DNA of 64,000 bases from the NCBI GenBank assembly GCA_905614365.1, contig CAJQSO010000024.1, forward strand, positions 33,097 to 97,096. The letters are read 5' to 3'. A program made the position numbers and the translations under genes. The DNA is from an uncultured Candidatus Thioglobus sp. GTDB lineage: Bacteria > Pseudomonadota > Gammaproteobacteria > PS1 > Pseudothioglobaceae. Within the stretch, counting starts at the first letter, position 1. Every line of letters starts with the position of its first letter. This document shows, piece after piece, positions 47,616-54,345 of this stretch. The notes beneath the pieces were generated by a model, which saw only the letters and a list, made by a program, of their open reading frames with translations, was not told the origin of the DNA and made no database searches.

Positions 47616-48686
47616 TTAATACTTATAACCAGCCTCAAATAAAGTCTCTTGAGAAGAAGGCTGAGAGCCAGCAACATAATCCCCAGTAGAAGACTCTGAA
47701 TTAGCTTGGCATCTTGCCATTAATGCCTTTTGGCCTGCTTCAATATCACTACCTTTCCAGGCTTGTAAACATGATTGCTGCAAAGCTCTTCCATAAGAAA
47801 ATGTCAAACTTGTTGCGCTCTTATGTTCGATACTATTCATAGTATTAAGATAAACAGAGGCATCTTCTTCAGTTAACCCGCCTGACAGAAACATAATTCC
47901 TGGAACTGCTGCTGGTACGCAACGATTCATTGTGCGAACTGTCATCTTAGCAACCTCTTCTGAACCAGCTTTATTTGAATTATCGGCGCCAGAAACAGTC
48001 ATTGAAGGCTTTAATAGTGTTCCCTCTAAGAAAACGTTATTTTCTGAGCAAGCTTTGTAGACTTCAACTAAGACTTTCTCTTGCACTTCTGCTGTCTTCT
48101 CAATAGTATGATCTCCATCCATTAAAATTTCAGGCTCAATAATGGGGACAAGTCCTGACTCTTGACAAATTTTTGCGTATCTTGCAAGACCCCAAGCATT
48201 CTCTTTAATTGCAAGATCTGTAGGGCATCCATCAGCAGTAATTTGTAACACAGCGCGCCATTTTGCAAAACGTGCTCCTTGTTTATAATACTCAGCAGTT
48301 CTCTCAGCAAGACCTTCTAAACCCTTACACCATGTCTCTACTTCATGCCCACCAGCTAATGGACTTAAGCCTTTATCTACCTTAATACCTGGAATTATTC
48401 CCAGCTTATTAATTTTTGAAACCATAGTTTCACCATCAAGGTGGTTTTGATAAAGTGTTTCTTCGAAAAGGATGATTCCACTAATATATTCACCAATACC
48501 TTCTGCAGTAAAGAGCATTCCACGATAGGCTTGACGATTTTCTTCTGTGTTCTCAATATTAATACCAGCAAGACGTTTGCCTATTGTTGGAGTAGACTCA
48601 TCTACTGCAAGAAGACCTTTGCCTCTAGCAGCCAATTGATTTGCGGTTTGTCTTAATTCTTCTTGATTATTTATCATAATTTTCAC
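47616..48686 (-). CDS. Class I fructose-bisphosphate aldolase (eukaryotic-like)
   Basis: 356 aa; GKGLLAVDESTPTIGKRL, GIKVDKGLSPLAG, VPIIEPEIL, LEGTLLKPSM, C-terminal Tyr. Confidence 0.95.
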   Translation of the reverse strand: MKIMINNQEELRQTANQLAARGKGLLAVDESTPTIGKRLAGINIENTEENRQAYRGMLFTAEGIGEYISGIILFEETLYQNHLDGETMVSKINKLGIIPGIKVDKGLSPLAGGHEVETWCKGLEGLAERTAEYYKQGARFAKWRAVLQITADGCPTDLAIKENAWGLARYAKICQESGLVPIIEPEILMDGDHTIEKTAEVQEKVLVEVYKACSENNVFLEGTLLKPSMTVSGADNSNKAGSEEVAKMTVRTMNRCVPAAVPGIMFLSGGLTEEDASVYLNTMNSIEHKSATSLTFSYGRALQQSCLQAWKGSDIEAGQKALMARCQANSESSTGDYVAGSQPSSQETLFEAGYKY

Positions 48687-48700
48687 CTTTGTATTTACTT

Positions 48701-50146
48701 TTAATAATTTCCATCACCGACACGCAAAATTTTCATCAGATTTGTGCCGCCCGATTTATCTTTATGCATCCCCTTTGTAATAATAACAATATCACCTTTT
48801 TCAACTTGAGATTTATTTTCTAAATTTTCGATAACATGGGTATTGACATGATTCCAGTCATCCGCACTTGTTTTATCTATATAGCAAGGATAGACTCCTC
48901 TATAAATAGTAACTTTTTTTAAAGTTTTGTAATTATCAGACATTGCAAAAATTGCGATATTTGAACTAATTCTTGACATCCAAAGTGCTGTTTTTCCGGT
49001 TTGAGTTAAGGTTGCCACTACCTTTGCACCCAAATGATTAGCAGCGTACATAGAACTCATAGCGATTGTTTCATCAATACCTTCAAAATGTTCATGAAGC
49101 CTATGATGAGATACTTTTGCTGTTGGGCTTTTCTCAGTTTCCAAACAGACATCATTCATTGTTTTTACTGCTTCTATAGGATGAGCACCTACTGCAGTTT
49201 CTGCAGAAAGCATTACTGCATCAGTGCCATCTAAAACTGCGTTTGCAACATCAAAAACCTCTGCTCTAGTTGGTATAGGACTAGTGATCATTGATTCCAA
49301 CATTTGAGTTGCTGTAATAACAAATCTATCATTCGCCCTAGCCAATAAGATTAGGCGTTTTTGTTGGGCAGGTAACTGAGGATCTCCAATTTCAACACCT
49401 AAGTCTCCCCGTGCAACCATAATTCCTGCAGATTCTTGAATAATCTCATTAATCACATCCTCTTGCAGTGCTTCAGCTCGCTCAATTTTTGCAATAACAC
49501 TAGCGTTCGATCCAGCCTCCTTAAGGAGCCTCTTGGTTTCACGAATATCGTCTGCATGGATAGGAAAAGAAATAGCTACATAATCAGCATCTGCCTTAGC
49601 TGCAATCAGAATATCTTGCTTATCTTTTTCAGTTAAGGCACTGGCACTTAAGCCACCACCTCGTAAATTTATTCCTTTATTATTATATAAAATTCCGCCC
49701 TGTAAAACTTCAGTTAAAATTTTTGGACCCTTAATATGTAAAACTTTGAGAATAATTTTTCCATCATCTAACAGCAAGGTGTTTCCAGCAATTAAGTCAT
49801 TTGGGAGCTGTTTATAAGCTACTCCAACAGTACTCTGGTTGCCTTCAGATGTTGCCATTTCAGCATCAAGAGTAAATTGGTCTCCATTTTTAAGCTCTAT
49901 CTTATTATCTATAAAAGAAGAAATTCTAATCTTTGGGCCTTGGAGGTCCATCAAGATTCCAATAAAGACATCGTTTTCTTTTTCATACTTTCTGACTTGA
50001 GCAATTCGCTCAAAATGTTCTTTTTCATTATTATGCGAAAAATTAATTCGAATAACGTTTACGCCAGCGTCTAAAATTCCTTTTAAAACTTGGGGGTCAT
50101 CAGTTGATGGTCCGAGGGTAGCTAAAATTTTTGTTCTTCTATTAAT
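48701..50146 (-). CDS. pyk: Pyruvate kinase, extended upstream of the ATG/GTG/TTG-called ORF (49954) to a probable ATT start
   Basis: The ORF track starts at [10 protein letters not shown]; in-frame upstream codons encode [39 protein letters not shown], the conserved Pyk N-terminus. Confidence 0.9.
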
Positions 50147-51314
50147 TATTTTTCTCCTGCATTCTTTTCTCTAAAACTTCCACAACTGGAAGTGTTTTTC
50201 CTTCTAGGAACTCTAAAAATGCACCTCCACCAGTTGAAATATAGGATATTTTATCTCCAATATTAAATTTACTAATAGCTGCTAAGGTGTCACCGCCTCC
50301 CGCAATTGAAAAAGCGTCTGAATCTGCAATTGCATGCGCTATTTTCTCAGTGCCATTTGCAAATTGCTCAAATTCAAATACGCCCACAGGCCCATTCCAT
50401 ACTATTGTTTCAGCATTTTTCATAATTTCACATAACTCATCAATAGAGTTAGGTCCAATATCAAAAATCATATCATCAGAACTAACGCTACTTGAATTTT
50501 TACTTTCTGCAGTTGCAAACTCAGAGAATTCTTTTCCACAAACTACGTCACCAGGGATAGGGATTTGGCAATGCTCCATTAATGCTTGAGCTGTAGGGAT
50601 AAGATCATGCTCACACAAAGACTGTCCAACACTATGGCCCTGAGCAGCAATGAATGTATTGGCAATACCTCCACCAACTACTAACTGATCAACAATTTTA
50701 GAAAGTGCATCAAGAACTGTTAATTTAGTTGATACTTTTGATCCTCCAACAATCGCAACCATTGGTCTTTTTGGATTTTCCAGCGCCTTCCCAAGAGATT
50801 CAAGTTCGCCAATGAGTAGGGGTCCAGCACAGGCAATAGGCGCAAACTCAGTAACACCATAAGTTGAAGCATGGGCTCTATGGGCAGTCCCAAAAGCATC
50901 TTGCACGCAAACATCACACAAAGATGCTATTTGTCTTGATAAGGCTTCATCGTTTTCTTTTTCACCTTCATTAAATCTGACATTTTCGCAAAGCACAACC
51001 TCACCAAAATTCATTTCAACACCATCAAGCCAGTTTGATACAAGGGTTACTGGTTGTCCGAGTAAATCAGAGAGATGCTTAGCTACTGGTTTAAGCGAAT
51101 ATTTGTCATCAAACTCACCAGCGTTTGGCCTTCCAAGGTGCGACATTATCATTACCTTAGCGCCAGCTTTAAGTGCATGAGTAATAGTTGGCAATGAAGC
51201 TACAATACGGGTATCACTAGTGATCTCACCATTTTTTATTGGGACATTTAAATCTTGTCTAATTAAAACTCTCTTTCCACTTAAATCAAGATCAGTCATC
51301 TTAAGTAAATTCAT
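50142..51314 (-). CDS. pgk: Phosphoglycerate kinase (likely start [11 protein letters not shown]; the ORF extends to 51326)
   Basis: [53 protein letters not shown]. Confidence 0.97.
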
Positions 51315-51338
51315 CAAACACCCCAAGTCAAATTAAAA

Positions 51339-52337
51339 CTACTTTGAAATGTGTCCAGCTAAACGCAACAGGTTGCACGTATAACTATATTCATTATCAT
51401 ACCAAGAGACTATTTTAACAAATGTTGAGTCCATTGACATGCCTGCCTCAGCATCAAATATTGAAGCAAAAGTACTTCCAACAAAGTCTGTCGAAACAAC
51501 TTTTTCATCTGTATAGCCTAAAACGCCTTTCATTGGGCCCTCAGAAGCTGACTTCATTGCAGCACAAATAGCCTCATAATCAGACTCATCATTCAACTCA
51601 GCAGTTAAGTCAACAACTGAAACATCTGAAGTTGGCACTCTAAAAGCCATCCCAGTTAATTTACCATTAAGTTCAGGTAGAACTTTACCCACCGCTTTTG
51701 CAGCACCTGTTGATGATGGAATAATATTTTCTAATATACCTCGGCCACCACGCCAGTCTTTCAAAGAAGGACTATCAACAACTTTTTGAGATGCTGTTGC
51801 AGCATGAACTGTAGTCATCAAACCACGCTTAATACCCCATCCATCATTAAGTACTTTGGCAATTGGAGCCAAACAATTTGTAGTGCATGAAGCAGCTGAT
51901 ATTATCGACTGACCATCATATGAATCATGGTTAACACCATAGACAAACATTGGCGTGTGGTCTTTAGAAGGCGCTGATTGCATTACTTTTTTAGCACCAG
52001 CATCAATATGTGCCTGACAAAGTTCTTCTGTTAAGAAAAAACCAGTACAGTCAATCACCAAATCTGCACCAACGTCTCCCCACTTTAAATCCGCAGGATT
52101 TCGCTCAGCAGTTAAGCGAATCTTTTTCCCATCAATGACAAAATTATTTCCTTCTACTGTGACATCTTTACCGAACCTTCCATGCACTGAATCATATTTG
52201 AGCATATAAGATAGATAATCATTATCAAGTAGGTCATTAATTCCAACTACTTCTAAATTATCAAAATCTTTATCGATTGCACGAAAAACCATTCTACCAA
52301 TTCGACCAAAACCATTAATTCCAACTTTTATTGTCAT
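51339..52337 (-). CDS. gap: Glyceraldehyde-3-phosphate dehydrogenase, type I
   Basis: 332 aa; [44 protein letters not shown]. Confidence 0.98.
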
Positions 52338-52356: not shown

Positions 52357-54345
52357 TTAACTTAAAACTCTGTTAACAGTGGAAATTACGTTATCTACTG
52401 TAAACCCAAAATGTTTAAATAGCTCTCCTGCTGGCGCTGATTCACCATATGTGGTCATTGAAACTATCCCTCCTTCAAGACCTACATATTTATACCAAGA
52501 CTCTGCAACGCCAGCTTCTATAGCAACGCGCTTAACTCCAGGTATTAATACGGAATCCTTATATGCTTGATTTTGCTCATCAAAAACATTTGTGGAGGGC
52601 ATTGATACAACACGAACCTTCCTATCACTCATCATTTTTGCAGCATCAACTGCCAATGAAACTTCTGAGCCAGTAGCAATTAAAATTATGTCAGCATCGC
52701 CGCTACAATCTTTAAGAGTGTATCCACCTTTCTCAATGTTATTCACTTGCTCAATGGTTCGCTCCATTGGAGTCAAGTTTTGTCTAGAGAAAATTAATGC
52801 AGTTGGGGCGTCACCTCTTAACATAGCTATTTTCCAAGAAACTGCAGACTCAATAGCATCACAAGCTCGCCAAGTTTGAAAGTTAGGTATGACTCTCATA
52901 GTTGCTATCTGCTCAACAGCCTGATGAGTTGGACCATCTTCACCAAGACCAATTGAATCATGTGTATACACAAAAATTGTTCCAATCTTCATCATTGCAG
53001 ACATTCGAAGAGCATTTCTCATATATTCCATGAACATAAGAAATGTTGCTCCATAAACTTTAAAGCCACCATGCAGAACCATACCGTTCATCATTGCCGC
53101 CATACCAAATTCACGCACTCCCCATGAAATATAGTTTCCATTTGCATTTTCAGCATTGACTACAACACTTCCAGACCAATTAGTCAAATTTGAACCAGTT
53201 AAATCCGCAGATCCACCAAATAATTCAGGAACTATTGGGCCCATAGCTTCGATTGTATTTTGTGAAGCTTTTCGTGAAGCTATATTAGGCATGTCTTGTT
53301 GCGTTTTAGCAATAAAATCATCCATTTTCGAGGCAAAATTATCTGGTAAGCTTCCAGAAATTCGACGCAGAAATTCAGCAGCTTCGCTTGGAAAGCTAAC
53401 ACTATAAGCTTTAAATTTTTCATTCCATTCATCTTCTACTTCAGCACCTTCAGCCTTATGATCCCAACCCTCATAAATCTCTTCAGGAATTTCAAATGGC
53501 CCATAATTCCAACCAAGTTTTTCTCGTGTTTTTGCAATTTCCTCATCACCTAAAGGTGCGCCATGACAGTTATGAGAACCTGCTAGATTAGGGGAGCCAA
53601 AACCAATTACAGTACGAGTGCATATTAAAGTTGGTCTATCATTCATTGCTTTAGCTTCAACTATAGCAGCATTAATGGCTTCAGGATCATGGCCATCAAC
53701 ATCAGATAAAACATGCCAATTGTAAGATTTAAAGCGGCCAGGGACACCTTTTTCCATCCAATCTCCAATATGTCCATCAATTGAAATATCATTATCATCC
53801 CAAAATGCTATTAATTTCCCTAGTCCAAGAGTTCCAGCCATTGCGCAAGACTCATGCGAAAGTCCCTCCATAAGACAACCATCGCCCATAAAAGCATACG
53901 TATGATGATCTACAATAGAATGGCCTGGCTTATTAAATTGAGCAGCAAGAGTTCTTTCCGCAATAGCCATGCCAACTGCATTACAAATACCTTGACCTAG
54001 TGGGCCTGTCGTTGTCTCAACGCCATCAGCATAACCATATTCTGGATGTCCAGGTGTTTTGGAGTGAAGTTGACGAAAATCTTTTAGATCATTGATACTT
54101 AAATCGAAACCAGCCAAATGTAGTAATGAGTATATAAGCATTGATCCATGACCATTTGATAGAACAAATCGATCTCTATTTGACCAATTTGAGTTTGACG
54201 GATTGAACTTTAAGTGTTTATTCCATAAAACTTCTGCAATATCGGCCATTCCCATTGGGGCGCCAGGGTGTCCAGAGTTTGCTTTTTGCACGGCATCCAT
54301 ACTCAAGGCGCGGATTGCATTTGCTAGTTCAATTTGTGTCGCCAT
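52357..54345 (-). CDS. tkt: Transketolase
   Basis: 662 aa; [47 protein letters not shown]. Confidence 0.98.

Follow-up and report, generated by a model that had tools for sequence, protein, structure and literature searches.

Comparison of start regions in the genus of Ca. Thioglobus singularis PS1, within the SUP05 clade, leads us to propose a near-cognate AUU codon as the translation start of pyruvate kinase (Pyk) in several lineages of this genus. In the window, by which we mean the whole 64,000-nucleotide stretch of DNA analysed, pyk is likely (with a probability of roughly 0.8) to start at AUU 50146-50144, by means of a Shine-Dalgarno (SD) sequence embedded in pgk and an overlapping pgk stop codon, with ribosomes re-initiating there and producing well under one Pyk per Pgk. 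The ATT start codon is very rare, AUU-started bacterial genes forming a tiny class in which infC (IF3) is the textbook case in E. coli and other bacteria, and the host group comprises abundant marine sulfur bacteria.

RESULTS

The pyk reading frame continues upstream of its first canonical start codon

The genome from which the window derives is a fragmented draft (1.14 Mb). Within it, the genes for transketolase, GAPDH, PGK, Pyk and class I aldolase share one direction, and the features relevant to the pyk start are as follows.

47616..48686, minus strand: fba, class I fructose-bisphosphate aldolase, directly downstream of pyk (domain match)
48701..50146, minus strand: pyk, pyruvate kinase, 481 aa from ATT (translation; Pfam PK 363 bits and PK_C 106 bits; full-length orthologues)
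48701..49954, minus strand: canonical-start ORF (TTG 49954), without the first 64 residues (ORF list)
50142..50144, minus strand: pgk stop TAA, one T in common with the ATT start
50144..50146, minus strand: ATT, proposed pyk initiation codon (ATT/ATC in 9/9 genomes without a canonical start)
50147..50149, minus strand: ATA, the other near-cognate candidate (G006, taken as PS1, has its ATG here)
50154..50158, minus strand: AGGAG Shine-Dalgarno sequence, inside pgk codons (Gln-Glu), 7 nt before ATT
50171..50173, minus strand: in-frame TAG, upstream end of the pyk frame
50142..51326, minus strand: pgk, phosphoglycerate kinase, upstream of pyk (longest ORF)
51339..52337, minus strand: gap, glyceraldehyde-3-phosphate dehydrogenase, same gene string (domain match)
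52357..54345, minus strand: tkt, transketolase, same gene string (domain match)

The listed pgk ORF opens at TTG (51270-51326, minus strand), a later ATG (MNLLKM or MTDLDL) being the likelier true start.

The preliminary description of this DNA had reported a pyk frame without a canonical start, and its coordinates were confirmed base by base. The minus strand of the window reads TAG AGA AAA GAA TGC AGG AGA AAA ATA ATT AAT AGA AGA ACA AAA ATT TTA GCT ACC, and the pyk frame contains no ATG, GTG or TTG between the TAG at 50173-50171 and the TTG at 49954. The 64 codons in between are conserved pyruvate kinase sequence under purifying selection. PF00224 (PK) matches residues 3-327 counted from the ATT and PF02887 (PK_C) is also matched, the barrel and C-terminal domains both being complete, and solved PykA-type pyruvate kinases align with the window Pyk from residue 3. 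Moreover, pairwise dN/dS between the window and ATG-started congeners, where computable, amounts to ~0.03-0.16 in the 62 codons that begin at RRTKI, similar to the remainder of the gene. The identification of the upstream frame as the canonical Pyk N-terminus is borne out by both the domain match and these low dN/dS values.

The same data weigh upon the possibility that the real start is TTG 49954, which is the first canonical codon in frame, or that the gene is decaying. A start at 49954 would drop 64 conserved residues including RINFSHN, which in this family carries a catalytic arginine and cation ligands. Purifying selection acts on the first 62 codons just as it does further along the gene. 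As the first canonical codon also sits elsewhere in the congener G028, we reject this explanation as highly improbable.

ATT or ATC occupies the same codon in nine genomes of the genus

A pyk match was present in 25 of the 29 species genomes of the genus. Among readable junctions, those of the window genome (G000), G016, G024, G002, G010, G028, G018, G022 and G027 lack a canonical start before RRTKI. The codon two before RRTKI is ATT in eight of these nine genomes and ATC in the other (G010), and the codon preceding it is ATA, CTA (as in G002), AAT (as in G028) or ATT. Because this preceding codon varies, ATA is not the conserved feature. The preference for ATT over ATA voiced at the outset is upheld by this comparison of pgk-pyk junctions in relatives, which had itself been suggested there: the putative ATT start is the better supported, and ATA as a candidate start in the window's own genome is demoted to a less supported alternative.

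In the other congeners whose junction is readable, ATG stands at the codon two before RRTKI or at the one preceding it. In G006, taken as PS1, the sequence is ATG ATT AAT AGA, as against ATA ATT AAT AGA in the window, a single transition apart at the ATG. The existence of relatives with ATG at the homologous position, raised beforehand as an argument against the unusual start, was thus confirmed for some congeners but does not refute it, given that nine species are without a canonical start. As many congeners have ATG, the genus can do without the predicted near-cognate start.

The G010 junction is informative in a different way. Here, one T to C difference changes ATT to ATC and at the same time TAA to CAA, shifting the pgk stop three bases on, and this double effect is a direct sign of the base shared by the pyk start and the pgk stop.

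G028, which also has the ATT junction, is a closed genome (single 1.69 Mb contig, 99% complete), and this rules out an assembly error. An assembly or base-calling error that deleted an ATG might be suspected in a fragmented draft such as the source of the window, but the junction is repeated in eight other independently assembled genomes, and we reject such an error as extremely improbable.

A connection between the unusual start and autotrophy, also put forward in the preliminary description, was not supported: the closed ATT genome G028 is without a RuBisCO large-chain match and the ATG-bearing G006 has one, and a PF00016 search of the genus returned a match in most genomes of either start type. 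The matches fall into two score classes, of about 460 and 410 bits, and carbon-fixation potential is, as predicted from these matches, patchy within the genus.

Near-cognate genomes fall into three groups

Trees were constructed from pyk alone and from pgk-pyk-fba DNA with the start region excluded. The near-cognate genomes form three groups in these trees, namely the window clade, G028, and G018/G022/G027. A single clade for all nine was rejected (p 4e-77), as was a single clade for the window group and G028 (p 0.003). The minimum number of changes is three on the pyk tree and four on the longer alignment, where one open fork places G015 differently; the trees would allow ATT to have been gained several times as well as ATG to have been regained several times. 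Among 61,358 ancestral AUG starts in 36 genome groups, a single switch to AUU has been recorded (PMC5622118), a count that may be too low because annotated starts were its basis.

A weak start at this position extends across the family

When 82 genomes of the family were searched by pattern, 50 of them, from nine other genera, had TTG precisely at the minus-two codon. In this search ATH at the minus-two codon was confined to the window's genus, where the matches include ATG-started genes with ATT as second codon. ATG, TTG and ATT/ATC alternate at this position, or one codon away, across the family. The TTG in 50 genomes of other genera indicates an old, family-wide non-AUG start at this position, of which the window's ATT is the extreme form. 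A weak start has long been kept by pyk, probably for low or adjustable output.

In one family genome (G095), two near-identical pyk start regions occur on contigs C30 and C66, possibly through strain mixing or duplication. In a scan of named genomes, of which one is a close relative and the rest are distant, 53 of the 55 pyk loci have ATG or GTG near the N-terminus and two have ATG slightly further up.

Start codon turnover was gauged from two congeners, G028 and G006. Using crude start calls, 609 orthologue pairs have a common canonical start, with TTG on both sides in 29 and TTG facing ATG in 13; ATG stands opposite TTG in 13 of the 45 TTG-bearing pairs. These figures bear upon the idea that the ATT is the product of tolerated drift, whereby mutation in an AT-rich genome destroyed an ATG, the strong SD and coupling sufficed, and the ATT came to be used without selection for low output. 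The single transition that separates the window ATA from the ATG of G006 is in keeping with drift, and SD compensation of weak starts is known (PMC5622118). Conversely, drift sits uneasily with AUU switches at 1 of 61,358 in that study when set against three groups for one gene in one genus, and with the retention of TTG in 50 family genomes when set against the 13 of 45 pairs with ATG opposite. We regard drift as a tentative but real possibility.

A strong Shine-Dalgarno sequence and the pgk stop codon lie at the proposed start

Duplex energies were calculated for the 20 bases upstream of each start against the 16S tail (...GGATCACCTCCTTA), values of -6.0 kcal/mol or below being considered strong. 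The AGGAG (50158-50154) first noted in the window, 7 nt before the ATT, is a strong SD by this calculation, with a duplex energy of -7.4 kcal/mol. All nine near-cognate junctions fall between -6.0 and -8.9 kcal/mol. Likewise, all seven TTG junctions are at or below -6.0 kcal/mol, the best match in G029 and G034 being farther from the start than usual, whereas only 3 of the 15 ATG junctions reach that value. Genome-wide, ATG genes of G028 have a mean of -3.0 kcal/mol and 23% reach -6.0. The association of SD strength with start type comprises three supported independent pairs only (sign test p 0.25), and the pattern fits, in its direction, a putative compensation for weak codons, with pairs too few for significance. 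Belinky et al. 2017 (PMC5622118) described weaker starts accompanied by stronger SD sequences, and the same pairing is seen in pyk of the window's genus. However, their compensation covers GUG and UUG, with AUU switches almost absent, whereas the pyk start would be AUU.

The ATTAA overlap reported for the window was also verified, the first T of the pgk TAA (50144-50142) being the last base of the ATT (50146-50144). In all nine near-cognate genomes the pgk stop lies -5 to +5 nt from the pyk start codon, at +2 or +5 nt in the window clade and at -5 in G028 and the G018 clade. Overlapping gene pairs that re-initiate (ATGA/TGATG; PMC6728339) similarly have an SD inside the upstream gene and a base shared between stop and start, and removal of the SD usually lowers their re-initiation. 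Those pairs start with ATG, whereas pgk-pyk has an ATTAA overlap and an ATT start, and its coupling is putative.

Overlapping frames, with the pyk frame open back into pgk for some codons, would also be compatible with a programmed frameshift, in which a Pgk-Pyk fusion is made and pyk needs no start codon. The relative frame of pgk and pyk nevertheless differs between clades (+2/+5 as opposed to -5), and no conserved slippery site was seen at the junctions; what is conserved there is an SD and a start-like codon. We therefore reject a frameshift as having very little probability.

pyk stands alone in a survey of orthologous genes

In 798 non-overlapping orthologue pairs from G028 and 914 kb of G006 (about half of G006, whose assembly is one contig of 1,714,148 bases), only the pyk pair showed, at a plausible gene start, clear conservation of coding sequence 5' of the first canonical codon. 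The survey used overlap and codon position as filters against shadow ORFs, extensions of fewer than 10 codons being invisible to it. Among 56 pairs for the window itself, pyk again was alone.

A separate stretch, at G028:C1:1421122-1421611 and its G006 orthologue, has 20 codons upstream of the first canonical start that are 95% identical. The downstream gene is probably of the ratA type, and third-position changes are almost absent, which suggests a DNA element that is overlapping or structured, and not an extension of the coding sequence. Our search for literature that combines pyruvate kinase with AUU or UUG starts found no paper.

infC starts with ATT throughout the genus

ATT precedes the conserved N-terminus in each of the 23 infC genes found in the genus, none of which offers a canonical start as an alternative; infC was absent from the matches in the window's own incomplete assembly. 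A typical start is AGGAGTAATTATTAAA, and almost every gene has GGAGTAATTATTAAA or a sequence close to it. Most have a tandem ATT ATT, whereas G014 has ACT ATT and G017 has GTT ATT, and the retention of only the second ATT in these two genomes supports it as the real start. An altered initiator tRNA was considered and discarded, G028 having ordinary CAT-anticodon tRNAs only, with no odd Met tRNA seen. The ATT starts of infC throughout the genus, together with these ordinary tRNAs, lead us to expect AUU initiation with the standard tRNA-fMet. Furthermore, a 13-base string, GGAGTAATTATTA, is common to the pyk start region of G022 and G027 and the infC start region of the genus. An AUU start and a strong SD are thus features that infC has in common with pyk of the window's genus, but infC is autoregulated by its own product, IF3, whereas Pyk is a metabolic enzyme and its control by IF3 is putative.

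DISCUSSION

The comparative evidence argues that the pyk start is real, and the regulatory reading remains a proposal. In our proposed mechanism, the initiator tRNA (CAU anticodon) would read the near-cognate AUU as fMet. The SD, located in the final codons of pgk, would retain ribosomes that finish pgk and let them re-initiate at the pyk AUU, with the strong SD and the pgk stop atop the start making a weak codon usable. This would result in a Pyk:Pgk ratio well below one and tied to pgk translation.

A functional addition to this mechanism, using the same start, is that Pyk output senses IF3, with translation going down at high IF3 and up at low IF3, so that carbon flux is tied to the translation machinery. 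IF3 represses non-canonical starts elsewhere, such as the GTC start of sigR in Streptomyces (PMC5472188), and high IF3 lowers re-initiation (PMC2268962); from these reports we infer that Pyk output may respond to IF3. The ATT starts of both infC and pyk, the string common to infC and the G022/G027 pyk, and the occurrence of near-cognate starts in three separate groups all point in this direction. However, such control would be patchy, as IF3 strongly rejects neither the ATG of most congeners nor the TTG of other genera, and the shared 13-base string is partly explained by the pgk Glu-stop codons (GAG TAA). We consider IF3 sensing to be on the unlikely side. The parallel with sigR is instructive in other respects, its non-canonical start being conserved in the genus and missed by gene callers restricted to ATG, GTG and TTG (PMC5472188), as with pyk. 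Conversely, sigR is a regulatory gene with an experimentally proven GTC start, whereas the start proposed for pyk is ATT/ATC, on comparative evidence.

A broader proposal is that the SUP05 family keeps pyk under a deliberately weak, non-AUG start at one fixed position, TTG in other genera and ATT/ATC in three lineages of one genus, with Pyk in the ATT lineages set by IF3 and pgk termination together as a translational valve. We consider this unlikely; were it true, the valve would act as a gate on carbon leaving the lower glycolytic/Calvin-type pathway.

Returning to the AUU start itself, pyk appears to be a new, unusually well-conserved entry in the small class of AUU-started bacterial genes. 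In an abundant marine lineage, pipelines confined to ATG, GTG and TTG would cut 64 residues off Pyk. The ATG, TTG, ATT and ATC versions of one gene amount to a natural experiment on IF3 discrimination and termination coupling. A conserved AUU start on a central metabolic enzyme in three lineages would show near-cognate starts setting enzyme dosage in evolution.
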